A stretch of 64,000 nucleotides of DNA, taken from Vibrio tubiashii. GTDB lineage: Bacteria; Pseudomonadota; Gammaproteobacteria; Enterobacterales; Vibrionaceae. The translations under genes and the position numbers were made by a program. Below the pieces are notes generated by a model that was given only the letters and a program-made list of their open reading frames with translations, did not search any database and had not been told where the DNA came from. Shown here piece after piece: positions 1,189 to 55,946 of the stretch (position 1 is its first letter; the number at the start of each line of letters is the position of its first letter). The DNA is taken from positions 806,001-870,000 of the forward strand of contig NZ_CP117029.1 of NCBI RefSeq assembly GCF_028551255.1, written 5' to 3'.

Positions 1189-1291
1189 GTCATTCCCTAG
1201 ACTGACGAAGGAAGAAGTAGGGAATCTCCATACTTCATCGACTTGCTTTAAGAGATCCCCAACTCACTCATTCTTCGTTCTTGAGGATGAC
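1189..1291. repeat. 103-bp REPIN-like inverted element, copy A
   Basis: Two 40-bp halves, 1189-1228 and 1252-1291, face each other across a 23-bp spacer. The outer ends read GTCATTCC and GGATGAC. Each half is itself an imperfect palindrome: ATTCCCTA pairs with TAGGGAAT in the left half, and ATCCTCAA with TTGGGGAT (one mismatch) in the right half. Copies B (25554) and C (55844) have the same 40-23-40 geometry, and related halves bracket the GIY-YIG gene at 3901. It could also be read as a transcription terminator-like structure, but there is no T-tract. Confidence 0.88.
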
Positions 1292-1977: not shown

Positions 1978-3642
1978 TTAAGCGGCGATAAGCAGCTCTT
2001 TAGCGTTGGCTAGCGTTGAATCAGTAATTTCACTTCCGCCTAGTAGTCGGGCTAACTCTGAAACGCGTTGTTCATTGTCTAAGCAGTGCATCTGAGTTTC
2101 AGTTTTACCTGCTTTGGTTTGTTTCGCGACAAACAGCTGTTGGTGACCACAGCCCGCTACCTGAGGAAGGTGAGTGACACACAGAACTTGAGTGGATTCG
2201 CCAAGTTTACGTAGCATTTTGCCAACCACAGCGGCTGTTGGACCACTGATACCCACATCGACTTCATCGAAGATCAGGCTAGGAGTATCGACTTTCTGCG
2301 CTGTGATCACTTGAATTGCCAGCGATATACGCGAAAGCTCACCACCAGAGGCAACTTTGGCAATAGGTTGCATTGGTTGCCCGGGGTTGGTTGAGACAAC
2401 AAAGCACACGGTGTCCATGCCAAGTGGGGACGGGTGAGTGCCTTCATTTGATACCTCAATACGGAACTGCGCTTTTTCCATACTAAGTTCGTGCATGCTA
2501 GCCGTGATCAACTTATTGAGTTCTTTGGCATAACGAATGCGCGATTTATGGAGCTTTTCTGACGTTGCTAGGAAGCGTTGATATTTGTTTTCTACTTCTT
2601 GTTCAAGTTCTTCCAGGCGTTCGTCCGAGCAATCAAGTGCTTCTATTTGACCGAGTAGATCTTGATGATGTTGGTAAAGTTCATCAGGCATAACATGATG
2701 TTTTCTCGCCATCGACATGACTTTAGAGAAACGCTCTTCCACGTAAGCCATACGTGCAGGATCGACATCGATGTTGTCCAAGTAATTACGAAGTTCACTA
2801 TTCGCTTCTTCAACTTGAATAATGGCTTCAGCAAGCATATTGGGTAACTCAGCCAACTTTTCATCTAACTCTGCGAGCTGGATTAAGGAGTGATTGGCCG
2901 ATTGCAAAATACCAAGCGCGTTAACTTCTTCACCTTCGTAAATAAGTTCGATGGCTTGTTGGCAGGTAGAGGCAAGTTCTCCACTGTTTGAGAGACGCTT
3001 GTGTTCTTGTTCGAGTTCTTCATATTCATCCTCGCCAAGAGAGAGTTCATTAAGCTCTTTAATTTGGTACTCAAGAAGTTGTTTCTGAGCTAGGTTTGCC
3101 GCACTGTTTTCTTTCAACTGCTTAAGGTTGTTGTCTGATTGTCGCCAAGATTGGTAGGCGTTGCGCGTGCTCTTAAGCTGGTTAGAGTGACCTGCATATT
3201 GATCCAACATTGCCATTTGGTACTCACTTTTCATCAATTGATGATGAGCATGCTGACCATGGATGTTGATTAACAGCTGCCCCAAAGTTTTTAATTGAGA
3301 AAGTGGAACAGGGCTACCGTTAATAAATGCACGAGAACGGCCTTCTTTACTGATGATGCGACGCAGAATACAGTCGCTCCCATCTAATAAGTCGTTGTCT
3401 TCTAGCCAGCGAGTGGCATTGATATTGTTCTCTAAAGAGAAAGCCGCGCTTACTTCAGTTTTCTCTTCACCTTGACGTACCATGCTGGCTTCCGCACGCC
3501 CGCCTAAACACAAACCGAGAGCGTCAATGGCGATGGATTTACCTGCGCCAGTTTCACCGGTAATGGTTGTCATTCCCTTGGATAGCTCTAGCTGTAGAGA
3601 CTTAACAATTGCAAAATTATTAACACTTAGATGAGCCAGCAT
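1978..3642 (-). CDS. recN: DNA repair protein RecN (SMC-like ATPase)
   Basis: A 554-residue SMC-family ATPase. The N-terminus has [16 protein letters not shown] and the Walker A motif GETGAGKS (about residues 29-36). A long coiled-coil middle (roughly 150-370, rich in E, Q, L and K) follows. The C-terminal half holds the signature VASGGELSR and the Walker B region [12 protein letters not shown]. RecN acts early in double-strand break repair, bringing DNA ends together. Length is normal. Two LexA boxes upstream show strong SOS control. The gene order recN-nadK-grpE is standard for vibrios, although a GIY-YIG element is inserted between recN and nadK here. Confidence 0.98.
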
Positions 3643-3766: not shown

Positions 3767-4225
3767 GTCATTCCATAGAGCGACGAAGGAGAGAGTAGGG
3801 AATCTCGTAACAGCTTGGCCTAATAGTTCTTTTTTCAAACTTTTTATTCAGAGAACCCATCTACTATTGGTGCTGTATGGGGGAGGTATAAGGAGTTAAT
3901 GTGAAACAACCTGCCGTATACATAATGGCTAACCAGTCTGGTAGCTGTTTGTACATTGGTGTTACTAGTAATCTAAAAGCGCGGGTATGGCAGCACAAAA
4001 ATGGCAGTGTGGATGGATTTAGCAAGCGGTATAACATTAATCGATTAGTTCACTATGAGCTTTATCTTGATATCAAAGACGCCATAGTGAGAGAGAAACA
4101 GATGAAAAAGTGGAAGCGAGAATGGAAAGAGAGATTAATCAACGAAACCAATCGTCGTTGGGCTGACTTATACGACTTTCTTTGAGAGATTCCTGACTCT
4201 GTCGTTCCTCCATCTCAGGAATGAC
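3767..4225 (+). mobile_element. Candidate mobile unit: GIY-YIG nuclease gene bracketed by inverted 40-bp REP-like halves
   Basis: The left half (3767-3806) starts GTCATTCC and ends GGAATCTC. The right half (4186-4225) is its inverted counterpart, starting GAGATTCC and ending GGAATGAC. Both are 40 bp and correspond position for position to the halves of the 103-bp elements at 1189, 25554 and 55844. The right half is a perfect stem (ATTCCTGA with TCAGGAAT); the left has one mismatch. Between them lie a 94-bp leader and the GIY-YIG gene, whose stop codon ends at 4185, directly against the right half. Mobility is inferred from this architecture only. Confidence 0.7.
3901..4185 (+). CDS. Small GIY-YIG endonuclease-like protein (COG2827/YhbQ-like)
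   Basis: This 94-residue protein consists of one GIY-YIG domain. The paired motif is AVYIM (residues 5-9) and LYIGVT (about 18-23). The catalytic arginine is in LKARVWQHK, and the conserved glutamate is in IVREKQMKKWKREWK, followed by RLINETN and WADLYDF. This subfamily is widespread in Proteobacteria as stand-alone ORFs; its biological role is unclear, but the fold makes single-strand nicks or breaks in related enzymes. The start is GTG, 5 bases after AGGAG (3891-3895). The gene is enclosed by inverted repeat halves (see 3767-4225), which suggests it may act on those repeats. It interrupts the usual recN-nadK spacing. Confidence 0.88.
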   Translation: MKQPAVYIMANQSGSCLYIGVTSNLKARVWQHKNGSVDGFSKRYNINRLVHYELYLDIKDAIVREKQMKKWKREWKERLINETNRRWADLYDFL

Positions 4226-4264: not shown

Positions 4265-5149
4265 TTAAAACAACCGACTCGACCAGCCCAACTTGTTTCT
4301 TAAAACATGGTAGTAGCTGTAATCTTTCGGGTGGATCAGCTTAAGCACATTCGGGCTTTGGTAGATGTGGACTTCATCCCCCGGCGAAACTGGTAATGAT
4401 ACTTGGCCGTCACAGCCCACTTCTTGCATTCCGCGGTTATCTGGAGAAACGACAAGCTTAATGTGGCGCGCGCTATCGACCACAAGTGGGCGGCTAGATA
4501 GGGTATGCGGGAACATAGGCACCAGTGAAATGGCATTCAAACTTGGCGACAGAATAGGGCCTCCACCAGAGAGTGAGTAGGCGGTTGAGCCGGTTGGCGT
4601 AGATACAATGAGACCATCCGCACGCAAAGAGAACGCGAAGCTATCATCGATGTAAACTTCGAACTCAATCATATGGGCGACTTGCCCAGGGTGAAGCACC
4701 GCTTCGTTTAGCGCGGCATTGTGGCTCTTAACTTGCCCATGTCGATGCACTTCTGCTTCTAGCAAAAAGCGCTCTTCTTCGATGAACTCGCCGTTCAGTA
4801 CGGCTGATAAGGCTGTTTGGAAATCTTCTGGGTTTAGGTCGGTAAGGAAACCTAAGTTACCTCTGTTTACACCTATGACTGAAATATCAAAGCGAGAGAG
4901 GACACGAGCAGCGCCTAGCATGTTGCCATCACCACCCACGACGATCGCTAGGTCGGCAATACGACCAAGTTGAATCAGACTAGCGAAATCGTCACTAGGA
5001 ATATCATCTAAGATTTCACTCAATCGATCGTCGATATACACTTTATAACCTTCGCTTTGAAGCCAGGTATATAGCTCTCTATGAGTCGCTATAGCTTGCT
5101 GATCTCTTGGTTTACCAATGATGGCGATCACTTCAAAAGGTTTTTTCAT
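4265..5149 (-). CDS. nadK: NAD kinase
   Basis: A 294-residue ATP-NAD kinase producing NADP+. The N-terminal half carries the diagnostic VVGGDGNML motif (about residues 70-78) and [11 protein letters not shown]. The C-terminal half has the NAD-binding block [25 protein letters not shown]. Length and order match E. coli NadK (292 aa). The start [14 protein letters not shown] is the family start. It is transcribed divergently from grpE, so the grpE heat-shock promoter and the nadK promoter share about 140 bases. A repeat half ends 39 bases beyond its stop. Confidence 0.97.
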
Positions 5150-7500: not shown

Positions 7501-7542
7501 GATCTAAGATTCGAGAAGCTAGAGGTAAGAATCGAGACGTTA

Positions 7543-7887
7543 CTAGCTCGACCTGTGCTTTATGATCAAAGCTCCTAAAATACGTGCAATATCATCGCAA
7601 ACATTGCACAACTCATCACATTGGTTTGAATGAAGATAATTTAGGGCAGACGCAAGTAGCAATTGGGTTTTGAGTTCTCCCACAGAACCTTTGGCTACAT
7701 TCAGGAAGTATGCCGTTTCTTTCCCACTTGTTCTTTCTACACCTTCAGCGATATTGCTGGGAATAGATATGCTGGAACGCCTTATTTGGTCACGAAAAGA
7801 GTAATCTTGAATATGTTGTACTGAAAGATACGTTTTCTTACAGAGTTCGAAACTTGTTTTCCAGACTTTTAGTTTTTCGTATTTCAC
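7543..7887 (-). CDS. Four-helix bundle protein (S23/IVS-encoded protein family)
   Basis: A 114-residue helical protein of the TIGR02436/S23 family. Family signatures are YEKLKVWKTSFELCKKTY at the N-terminus, DQIRRSSISIPSNIAEGVER in the middle and FLNVAKGSVGELKTQL after it. The family was first found inside 23S rRNA intervening sequences and is related in fold to the Avd accessory protein of diversity-generating retroelements; its cellular job is unknown. Here it is a stand-alone gene, with no rRNA or reverse transcriptase nearby. The start is GTG at 7887, preceded by AGGA. It faces opposite to dnaK and is flanked by a heptamer array on its upstream side and degenerate CGAG repeats on its downstream side (about 7508-7535). 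Confidence 0.85.
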   Translation of the reverse strand: MKYEKLKVWKTSFELCKKTYLSVQHIQDYSFRDQIRRSSISIPSNIAEGVERTSGKETAYFLNVAKGSVGELKTQLLLASALNYLHSNQCDELCNVCDDIARILGALIIKHRSS

Positions 7888-7996
7888 GTTAATTCCTATT
7901 TAAAACATTAGCTTGACCCAAAGGGTTAATGCTTGCGTATAGAAATAGTATTAATAGTTGAGACTTGACAGGAGTATCAATCTGTTAAAATTGTTT

Positions 7997-8041
7997 CTCG
8001 CCTCTCGCCTCTCGCCTCTCGCCTCTCGCCTCTCGCCTCTC
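7997..8041. repeat. Heptamer tandem array, 6 units of CTCGCCT
   Basis: Six perfect 7-bp units (7997-8038) plus a partial one. On the minus strand the unit is AGGCGAG, of the same ANNCGAG form as the arrays at 1347 and 10239. It lies upstream of the dnaK heat-shock promoters, between the four-helix gene and dnaK. Confidence 0.93.
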
Positions 8042-8073
8042 CAAATCTTTTTTAACTTTTTTTCACTTCGTCC

Positions 8074-10224: not shown

Positions 10225-10284
10225 TCTAGATAATGGTTCTCGAATCTCGAATCTCGAATCTCGAATCTCGAATCTTTATCTAGA
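10225..10284. repeat. Heptamer array (5 x CTCGAAT) enclosed by a perfect 9-bp inverted repeat
   Basis: Five perfect CTCGAAT units occupy 10239-10273. TCTAGATAA (10225-10233) and TTATCTAGA (10276-10284) are exact inverted copies flanking the array. The whole lies in the dnaK-dnaJ gap, so the transcript would carry it. Confidence 0.9.
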
Positions 10285-25553: not shown

Positions 25554-25656
25554 GTCATTCCATAGACCGAAGAATGAGGGAGTAGGGAATCTCTGTTAGT
25601 TTTCTACTCGTTTTGTGAGATCCCCAACTCGCTCGTGCCTCACTCTTGAGGATGAC
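25554..25656. repeat. 103-bp REPIN-like inverted element, copy B
   Basis: Halves at 25554-25593 and 25617-25656, with a 23-bp spacer. The left half starts GTCATTCCATAGACCGAAG and ends TAGGGAATCTC; the right half starts GAGATCCCCAACTCGCTCG and ends TTGAGGATGAC. The geometry is identical to copies A and C. Confidence 0.88.
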
Positions 25657-32752: not shown

Positions 32753-32848
32753 TAGGAACGGGCTACGCCCTATGGAAAGCGGGAACGGACTGCGTCCTAA
32801 GGAACGCTGCGCTTTTGGTAAATGGGATCGTGCTGCTCCCTGCTAGAA
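32753..32848 (+). repeat. Cluster of short hairpin modules (family H)
   Basis: GGGCTACGCCC, TATGGAAAGCGGGAAC, GGACTGCGTCC, AAGGAACGCTGCGCTTTTGG and a GATCGTGCTGCTCCC module. Same order as elsewhere. No gene. Confidence 0.83.
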
Positions 32849-32886
32849 AGCTAGATTTGACTCCGGAATAAAGTGGAGCAAATTTA

Positions 32887-32966
32887 GTTATCCAGTTATC
32901 CAGTTATCCAGTTATCCAGTTATCCAGTTATCCAGTTATCCAGTTATCCAGTTATCCAGTTATCCA
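32887..32966. repeat. Octamer tandem array, 10 units of AGTTATCC
   Basis: Ten perfect contiguous 8-bp units. On the minus strand the unit is GGATAACT, identical to the array at 53956. The array ends exactly at ATAGGACGCAGTCC, a family H hairpin module in reverse orientation (32967-32980). Confidence 0.95.
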
Positions 32967-33010
32967 TAGGACGCAGTCCGTTCCCTAATCCCGCATCCTA
33001 AATCCCTATC
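32967..33010 (-). repeat. Inverted family H module beside the octamer array
   Basis: ATAGGACGCAGTCCGTTCCC followed by two CCCGC-type fragments (ATCCCGCATCC, TATCCCGCTTCTC). It is the reverse complement of the GGACTGCGTCCTAT module. Confidence 0.78.
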
Positions 33011-53917: not shown

Positions 53918-54003
53918 GAACGGGCTGCGCCCTTCGGGAACGGACTTCGTCCTATGGATAACTGGATAACTGGATAACTGGATAACTGGATAACTGGATA
54001 ACT
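53918..54003. repeat. Family H hairpins followed by octamer array (6 x GGATAACT)
   Basis: GGAACGGGCTGCGCCCTTC and GAACGGACTTCGTCCTAT precede six perfect 8-bp units at 53956-54003. The array begins directly after GGACTTCGTCCTAT, the same junction as at 32966/32967 read on the other strand. Confidence 0.92.
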
Positions 54004-54015
54004 GAAATTGCTCCC

Positions 54016-54876
54016 TCATAGTTTAGTTGTCAACTCTCGCTCTCTAGAAGGGCGAAGCCCGATCCCGCTTTCCATAGCGCAGCGTTCCTGCTCTCCATAG
54101 GACGAAGTCCGTTCCAGCTTCCTGCCTTGCCCCGGCCAAGTGTCAGGCACAACAAACCAAAATTGACCGTTTTGTGTCTGAGCATGGACAAACCTTCCAT
54201 TGGGTTTATCGATAGGGTTGATGAATTCTTCTAGTCCGACCGCCCAAAGTGGCTTTTCAAGTTCATACAGAGGCTCACCGATTTGTTCCCACTGGCTTTG
54301 ATAGCACCAGTGTCCGGTGATTTGACTTTGATTGAGTGACAGTCCTAAACATTCTTGTGGAACGGTCTCTGGCGAAAAGGGATTAATGTACAACCTTCCT
54401 TGAATCAATAGATGTTCTGTTAGATCTTGATATTGAGGGTATTGGTTAAGAAACTCATCAGTCGAGCTCATTTTTAGCTGGTGGGAGAGCATTCTGGCCA
54501 GTTTTTTATCAAGCTGATCATGAGCGTTTGGTCCATACCAAATTCCGCTATGTAAAAGGTAGAATTTGATTGCCACTTCCCAATGTTCTTTACGCTGTTG
54601 CTGATGATTTTTAAGAATAAGATCAATCGCGCCTAAGGTTTGCCCACAAGATTTATTGATCTGAATTTCTTCATCGAGCAATGCAAAGCGGTCACTTTGA
54701 GTGAGTAACTTGGTGCAAAGGTATTGATAGATAAAACCAAGTCGCGGGTTACCTTGATATTCCTCTTCGATATAGGGAGGAACAGATAGAGAAGAGAGCT
54801 CCTCAAAAGGTGGCTTTAACTCGAATAGTGATGGAGTCTTGGCAATCCAATGATAAAAACGCTGTAGAGAATGCAT
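54016..54876 (-). CDS. DUF1853 family protein with repeat-derived C-terminus
   Basis: A protein of about 286 residues: HSLQRFYHWIAKTPSLFELKP, NPRLGFIYQYLCTKLL, GAIDLILKN, HWEVAIKFYLL and GRLYINPF match the DUF1853 family (E. coli YdiJ-unrelated; function unknown, PD-(D/E)XK-like fold suspected from E-V-A-I-K). The frame is open from 54987, but ATG 54876 fits the family start. The final 33 or so residues (KLERTSSYGEQERC and later) are translated from an intergenic hairpin cluster (54041-54116), so the original C-terminus probably ended near VPDTWPG. Divergent from ybgI. Confidence 0.8.
   Translation of the reverse strand: MHSLQRFYHWIAKTPSLFELKPPFEELSSLSVPPYIEEEYQGNPRLGFIYQYLCTKLLTQSDRFALLDEEIQINKSCGQTLGAIDLILKNHQQQRKEHWEVAIKFYLLHSGIWYGPNAHDQLDKKLARMLSHQLKMSSTDEFLNQYPQYQDLTEHLLIQGRLYINPFSPETVPQECLGLSLNQSQITGHWCYQSQWEQIGEPLYELEKPLWAVGLEEFINPIDKPNGRFVHAQTQNGQFWFVVPDTWPGQGRKLERTSSYGEQERCAMESGIGLRPSRERELTTKL
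54041..54116 (-). repeat. Inverted family H cluster overlapping the 3' end of the DUF1853 gene
   Basis: Read on the minus strand: GGAACGGACTTCGTCCTATG, then GGAACGCTGCGCTATGG, then GGGATCGGGCTTCGCCCTTC. It is inverted relative to the cluster at 53918 and lies inside the open reading frame. Confidence 0.85.
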
Positions 54877-55843: not shown

Positions 55844-55946
55844 GTCATTCCTTAGACCGAAGAATGAGGGAGTAAGGAATCTCTAAAGGTTGGCGGCTCG
55901 CGGTGAGAGATCCCCAACTCACTCGTGCCTCGTTCTTGAGGATGAC
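55844..55946. repeat. 103-bp REPIN-like inverted element, copy C
   Basis: Halves at 55844-55883 and 55907-55946 with a 23-bp spacer. In this copy the left stem reads ATTCCTTA with TAAGGAAT where copy A has ATTCCCTA with TAGGGAAT: both arms changed together, a compensatory pair that supports selection on the hairpin. Confidence 0.9.

Follow-up and report, generated by a model that had tools for sequence, protein, structure and literature searches.

A GIY-YIG nuclease-like gene bracketed by inverted CGTC-type repeats in Vibrio tubiashii: a candidate mobile unit with gene-free relatives and counterparts in many phyla

In the stretch of Vibrio tubiashii DNA analysed here (64,000 nucleotides, hereafter the window), a small GIY-YIG nuclease-like gene is bracketed by two inverted repeat halves, and this arrangement recurs in many phyla. 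The presence of the gene goes together with repeat number, the gene has been exchanged at its slot between Vibrio clades, and it is accompanied by gene-free elements whose spacers match its 3' end. The account that we consider probable is that the product of this gene, a predicted cutter of single-stranded DNA, acts at the bracketing halves, that half, gene and half likely form a mobile unit and that the 103-bp relatives are probably deleted copies of it. The architecture described in an earlier note on the same DNA was right and its derivation of the gene-free elements is probably right, while the RAYT-like role that it suggested for the GIY-YIG enzyme is putative, cleavage and transposition being predicted here.

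All coordinates of a 94-aa gene between inverted 40-bp halves, and of a stop codon abutting the right half, were verified (Table 1). Both halves of the gene unit carry the tag TGTC, CGTC is found at 1188-1191, and the tags point outward (HH arrangement) in the gene unit and in all three gene-free elements of the window. AT occupies the first and second stem positions (ATTCC/GGAAT), and the halves have a short outer stem, a long interior and the tail CTC in place of the stem, loop and CCA tail of CGTC REPs. The earlier description of the halves as palindromic calls for a caveat: as single-stranded DNA the left half folds poorly alone (-1.9 kcal/mol, z 0.65), and the right half has the better fold (-8.9, z -2.1).

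Table 1. The gene unit, its neighbours and the gene-free elements (positions of the window)
Feature	Position	Strand	Remarks
Gene-free 103-bp element	1189-1291	+	Spacer 1229-1251; at same site in G130, not in G001/G070
recN, left neighbour of slot	1978-3642	-	RecF/RecN/SMC-type protein; Pfam SMC_N
Left 40-bp half	3767-3806	+	Tag TGTC, outer stem ATTCC/GGAAT; outward tag as in relatives
Leader	3807-3900	+	Likely ribosome-binding site AAGGAG (~3890-3895), function inferred
GIY-YIG nuclease-like gene, 94 aa	3901-4185	+	ORF, PF01541; GTG start, TGA at 4183-4185
Right 40-bp half, inverted	4186-4225	-	Tag TGTC; first base directly after stop codon
nadK (NAD kinase), right neighbour of slot	4265-5149	-	Pfam NAD_kinase
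Gene-free 103-bp element	25554-25656	+	Spacer 25594-25616; absent at same site from G001, G070, G130
Gene-free 103-bp element	55844-55946	+	Spacer 55884-55906; at same site in G001, not in G070

The window protein contains a GIY-YIG domain (PF01541, E 4e-14) and no other Pfam domain; in particular, the HuH/Y1 tyrosine transposase domain is absent. Its structure was modelled with a mean pLDDT of 96.2, and the nearest folds, at modest scores, are UPF0213 (TM 0.59) and the N-terminal nuclease of UvrC (TM 0.52). By sequence profile and by structure the nearest solved fold is 1zg2, of the UPF0213/YhbQ type, and by sequence no close solved homolog was found. UPF0213-type GIY-YIG genes of Vibrio differ from the window type in their 27-33% identity and in lacking outward tagged hairpins (0 of 12 sides at 6 loci). 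Y7, Y18, G20 and E65 do not vary among 29 aligned sequences, and R28 hardly does; dN/dS among six pairs of window-type genes is 0.06-0.12, synonymous change being saturated for most wider gene pairs. A defence gene was considered and rejected (best PADLOC match E 0.0037, partial only), as was a phage origin (no PHROG match and no phage record). Rfam at the gathering threshold yielded one tRNA only. As a separate observation, a 23S_rRNA_IVP gene (PF05635, four-helix-bundle type; 7543-7887, minus strand) is flanked on both sides by short arrays of 7-bp repeats of the TCTCGAA/CTCTCGC type (7506-7537 and 7981-8057; such arrays also at 10230-10278 and 1333-1465), which is possibly another gene-repeat pairing.

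Each gene-free element consists of 40 + 23 + 40 = 103 bp, with a 23-nt spacer at the place where the gene unit has its gene. The claim that these elements are made of the same halves is borne out on the left, with 85-90% identity to the left half of the gene unit in all three, and is loose wording on the right, because only about 28 of 40 positions are identical there (by eye). When the 23 distinct spacers from 29 gene-free elements were compared with the gene, they were found to match its last 13 bases, in register with the right half, with a mean of 9.43 versus 4.73 (sd 0.98), and none of 5000 joint position permutations reached the observed value; with the 5' side of the gene the match of the same 23 spacers was not significant (p 0.08). 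On pSymB of S. meliloti, a copy consisting of repeat, leader, the last ~100 bases of the gene and repeat adjoins the full gene, and seven gene-free units with a 140-bp spacing precede the gene in one Vibrio genome (G013; genomes are given by our G numbers and loci by L numbers), such an array being present also in G025. The spacer match and the deleted copy of S. meliloti argue for the earlier proposal that the 103-bp elements derive from the gene unit, and to judge from sequence they probably are internally deleted gene elements. Far from its gene, G025 also has a run of seven nearly identical window-type halves at an exact 128-bp spacing (contig 1, 2158712-2159519).

Within the genus, the pattern GTCATTCCN{20,28}GGAATCTC, describing the half, was found in 57 of 148 genomes with up to 91 copies per genome, while the reversed pattern matched once each in 4 genomes and nowhere in the remaining 144; the recurrence of the half is more than chance. 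A GIY-YIG homolog is present in 35 of the 148 genomes, four of which (G071, G076, G102, G132) have weak UPF0213-type matches only and were counted as gene-less in the comparison of repeat numbers. The gene occupies several intergenic slots in Vibrio. It lies next to nadK in the window and in seven genomes (G013, G021, G025, G130, G120, G131, G110), and in all of these but G021, where the contig ends first, recN lies on the opposite side or upstream. A GTCAT...ATCT palindrome occurs within 600 bp of the gene at 25 of 31 Vibrio loci and at the remaining 6 none was found at that distance; 6 of the 31 loci are bracketed on both sides, or 1 of 31 under a stricter de novo hairpin rule. The tag is CGTC or TGTC in 24 of 28 Vibrio elements and the stem starts with AT in 22 of 28; most tails are CTC, and most loops measure at least 18 nt. 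The gene of G130 is broken, and G134 has what appears by eye to be a decayed relic. In four genomes (G108, G145, G103, G084; L246-L249) a second, diverged GIY-YIG-like gene, 27-32% identical to the query, is located a few kb away; it may be an inactive companion, since its YIG motif is lost in G103 and G084.

Comparison of the recN-nadK slot between genomes shows that Vibrio clades have exchanged the gene there, because the flanks and the gene of G025 have different nearest relatives: the flanks resemble those of the G131/G110 clade (nadK 87%, recN 92-94%), while the gene shares 88% identity with the one in distant G013 and only 60-63% with those of its G131/G110 neighbours. The earlier note had suggested a search for empty sites between recN and nadK. 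No clean one is offered by G001 and G070, whose NadK protein is 100% identical to that of the window, since their slot holds another repeat type and hence no exact junction can be read; one filled/empty pair was found in G131 and G088, where G131 has an 873-bp block of array and gene between direct copies of a half that is single in G088, so that the two sequences part within a half. Judged on its sequence, this pair fits insertion at a half and loss between halves equally well. Among 23 gene-less slots near G131, 17 have one G131-type half, some decayed (by eye; two of these genomes, G006 and G012, have the gene elsewhere), one has a truncated half, two have single halves of another type, two have gene-free arrays and one was unreadable. 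No target-site duplications were seen in the alignments of the slot and of the window elements. The Vibrio evidence from filled and empty sites amounts to one pair, as G110 and G122 did not align cleanly, and a filled/empty pair in Sinorhizobium is rougher than G131/G088. A second empty-site comparison, at a DHH-galU slot, was abandoned after a check of 28 other loci, galU being duplicated and DHH standing beside galU only in L188 (G010). The repeat type that fills the slot of G001 and G070 is of the GAACGGACTTCGTCCT/AGTTATCC kind, and in the window GAACGGACTTCGTCCT-type hairpins around 8-bp tandem arrays of AGTTATCC are observed at 32783-32998 and 53923-54120, in opposite orientation.

Outside Vibrio, at least 533 relatives were confirmed when named genome contigs were scanned, and the best 80 of them, with 50-60% identity, were kept; these best 80 of at least 533 belong to Proteobacteria, Planctomycetes, Nitrospira, Chloroflexi, Bacteroidetes, candidate phyla and one archaeal MAG, and single assignments may err because many are MAGs. 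Over 111 loci (31 from Vibrio plus the best 80 of at least 533), the palindrome density is 1.27/kb within 600 bp of the gene and 0.08/kb beyond 1.5 kb, and the reversed rule for the GTCAT...ATCT palindrome returned none over the same 111 loci. Four loci that were fragments or duplicates (L028, L061, L063, L138) were dropped, and 107 were scored. When hairpins beside the gene were scored de novo, with no motif assumed, the most frequent 4-mer at their outer edge was GTCA, which is present there on 135 of 214 sides versus 5 of 138 windows 1.5 kb away, a contrast part of which is expected because these control windows are probably mostly coding; the opposite orientation was found beside the gene on 54 of 214 sides (both counts include the best of at least 533). 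At the 76 non-Vibrio loci, again drawn from the best of at least 533, an outward-tagged palindrome stands on 121 of 152 gene sides and on both sides at 51 of 76 loci, counts that stand without a control set. The tag of these 121 elements is CGTC or TGTC in 109 and the stem starts with AT in 98, with an 8-bp stem in 98, a 4-nt loop in 80 and a CCA tail in 83. Upstream flanks compared with reversed downstream flanks exceeded the 99% level of mismatched pairs at 19 of 74 distant and 2 of 34 Vibrio-type loci; however, the direct orientation exceeded it too (16 of 74 and 8 of 34) and many loci carry arrays, hence this comparison was set aside in favour of the hairpin-edge counts.

Eight homologs from a plasmid collection were read by eye. 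A tagged palindrome is close on both sides of the gene in A. lipoferum, S. meliloti, N. aromaticivorans, A. caviae and a Rhizobium CIAT894 plasmid; the homolog of N. gonorrhoeae, which aligns with 95% of the query at 52.8% identity, is flanked on either side by palindromic GTCATTCCCGC repeats, and the repeat next to its stop codon points inward; that of a Planktothrix plasmid has repeats of a looser kind, and close upstream of the Photobacterium GJ3 homolog no tagged palindrome was found. The halves are therefore not absent around other members of the GIY-YIG family, and the family goes with such repeats far outside the window, in keeping with the earlier pairing of the two. As to the surroundings of these homologs, the one of the Planktothrix plasmid (L287) has a type IIL restriction enzyme on one side and DISARM drmA on the other, and the bracketed homolog of the Azospirillum lipoferum 4B plasmid (L283) is placed between sufB and sufC.

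The presence of the gene is correlated with repeat number, as the earlier note had anticipated. In a search of the 57 genomes positive for the half pattern, window-type halves are most numerous in the four with a window-type gene (G013 79, G021 31, G130 20, G025 17) and number 0-12 in the other 53, the next being G001 with 12 and no gene found. For the generic half in Vibrio, the mean is 11.8 with the gene and 4.4 without it, a modest difference with kinship ignored (p 0.02). In a class-wide sample of 370 genomes the gene is present in 88, the canonical repeat in 79 and both in 42 (odds ratio 6.0, p 1e-10, kinship ignored), so that 46 of the 88 have the gene without the canonical repeat and 37 genomes have the repeat without a detected gene. 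In the only copy-number test corrected for kinship, covering 49 mixed families with both states, the repeat is higher with the gene in 22, lower in 9 and tied in 18 (p 0.015). On whether repeats are equally abundant without the gene, which would speak against the proposal, the outcome is mixed, because several genomes without a detected gene are rich in repeats (G107 50, G148 35, G032 35, G466 90, G420 58).

CGTC REPs, according to the available parts of Di Nocera, De Gregorio, Rocco 2013 (PMC3733652), have an unpaired CGTC (or TGTC) end tag, AT in stem positions one and two, a stem of 8-9 bp, a loop of 4-5 nt and a CCA tail, form HH dimers with the tags outside and are carried by A. lipoferum, S. 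meliloti and N. aromaticivorans among others named; the same parts state that they "apparently lack a dedicated transposase", and the word Vibrio does not occur there. The window halves share with this description the tag, the AT-starting stem and the tags-outside dimers, and the non-Vibrio elements mostly share the 8-bp stem, the 4-nt loop and the CCA tail as well, whereas Vibrio halves depart in stem, loop and tail; because of this departure the window halves are classed as CGTC-type, outside the four published families. A second point of comparison is the RAYT (TnpA-REP)/REPIN system, in which, as far as the available text of PMC8266576 and PMC3116915 goes, a small nuclease-type gene is likewise flanked by palindromic repeats that are also numerous without the gene, many as inverted pairs. 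However, the enzymes are unrelated, GIY-YIG here and HuH/Y1 tyrosine in RAYT, and the tag is GTCA/CGTC here versus GTAG in REP/REPIN. From the sequences compared, the GIY-YIG family is likely the missing partner of the CGTC-class repeats that were once reported without one.

Site-specific single-stranded nucleases of the GIY-YIG superfamily, termed Ssn, are said to have been described together with the Neisseria NTS repeat by Chenal et al. in Nat Commun in 2025; homologs and matching sequences reportedly number in the thousands. The homolog found in N. gonorrhoeae is presumably the published Ssn, and the window protein most likely belongs to these single-strand nucleases by sequence. The likeness is that a small GIY-YIG protein of one domain goes with a repeat spread over the genome (17-79 copies of the window-type half in four genomes), and the difference lies in the ~40-bp Vibrio halves with their longer interior. 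The earlier note knew of no established name for such a system, a statement that has to be given up, as Ssn is reportedly a close published equivalent and most of the non-Vibrio repeats fit the CGTC REP superfamily; that GIY-YIG enzymes pair with repeats is probably already known, since Ssn and its Neisseria repeat have reportedly been published. What is added here beyond Ssn is the gene-bracketing unit, the deleted derivatives and the exchange between clades, single-strand cleavage being predicted only. In the literature searched, no paper was found linking GIY-YIG with REP or CGTC repeats, nor a statement that the repeat paired with GIY-YIG belongs to the CGTC REP class, that the bracketed unit is a mobile cassette or that it has deleted derivatives, and a term search of the available part of PMC12306157 did not return GIY.

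The favoured reading is an Ssn-type, repeat-specific single-strand nuclease that would act on its own bracketing halves, combined with repair-based copying of units. The enzyme would recognise the tagged half when it is single-stranded and folded, either on lagging strands or in DNA from transformation, and would nick near its tag, and this nick may start recombination by which units are inserted, copied or removed at existing halves. The further idea that CGTC REPs and GIY-YIG genes together move DNA without a transposase, as a ~460-bp unit copied by host repair that sheds 103-bp non-autonomous copies, is possible and is put forward tentatively. Neisseria Ssn reportedly cuts single-stranded repeats and in this way tunes natural transformation or recombination at repeats, and the same action without any mobility, with gene and repeats being moved by homologous recombination, would suffice for the exchange between halves at a fixed slot. 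However, such an enzyme leaves unexplained both the peak of window-type halves in genomes with a window-type gene and the spacers resembling deleted gene copies, and we hold it to be somewhat unlikely as a full account.

Repeats acting as terminators or mRNA ends could also gather in intergenic slots, the small gene being there by chance; the right half, which folds and directly follows the stop codon, and the other repeat types held by intergenic slots here agree with this, but outward tags on both sides at 51 of 76 non-Vibrio loci (best of at least 533), their absence from all 12 sides of UPF0213-type genes and the association in the class sample make mere coincidence of place very unlikely. 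It is even harder to credit that a RAYT or another Y1 transposase spreads the repeats with the GIY-YIG gene as a passenger in repeat clusters. At least one Y1 match is present in 11 of 20 Vibrio genomes searched, with two in G025, and the association of GTAG REPs with RAYTs is established; however, a tyrosine transposase gene with CGTC repeats on its flanks had not been found (both statements from the available parts of PMC3733652), and among the 20 genomes no Y1/RAYT gene was found in G013, G021 and G130 despite their 79, 31 and 20 window-type halves, which makes RAYTs an unlikely engine.

What multiplies CGTC REPs was left open in the available parts of Di Nocera et al. 2013 (PMC3733652), and the present data point to one enzyme family. 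As a candidate target can be read beside many GIY-YIG genes, the question of the multiplier can be put to a simple cleavage assay. Should the enzyme also drive the spread of the repeats, the family would be a second, unrelated counterpart of RAYT/REPIN, built on a hydrolytic nuclease, and if movement without a transposase were true, these units would rank with the smallest autonomous mobile elements and would drive a REP class present in many phyla.
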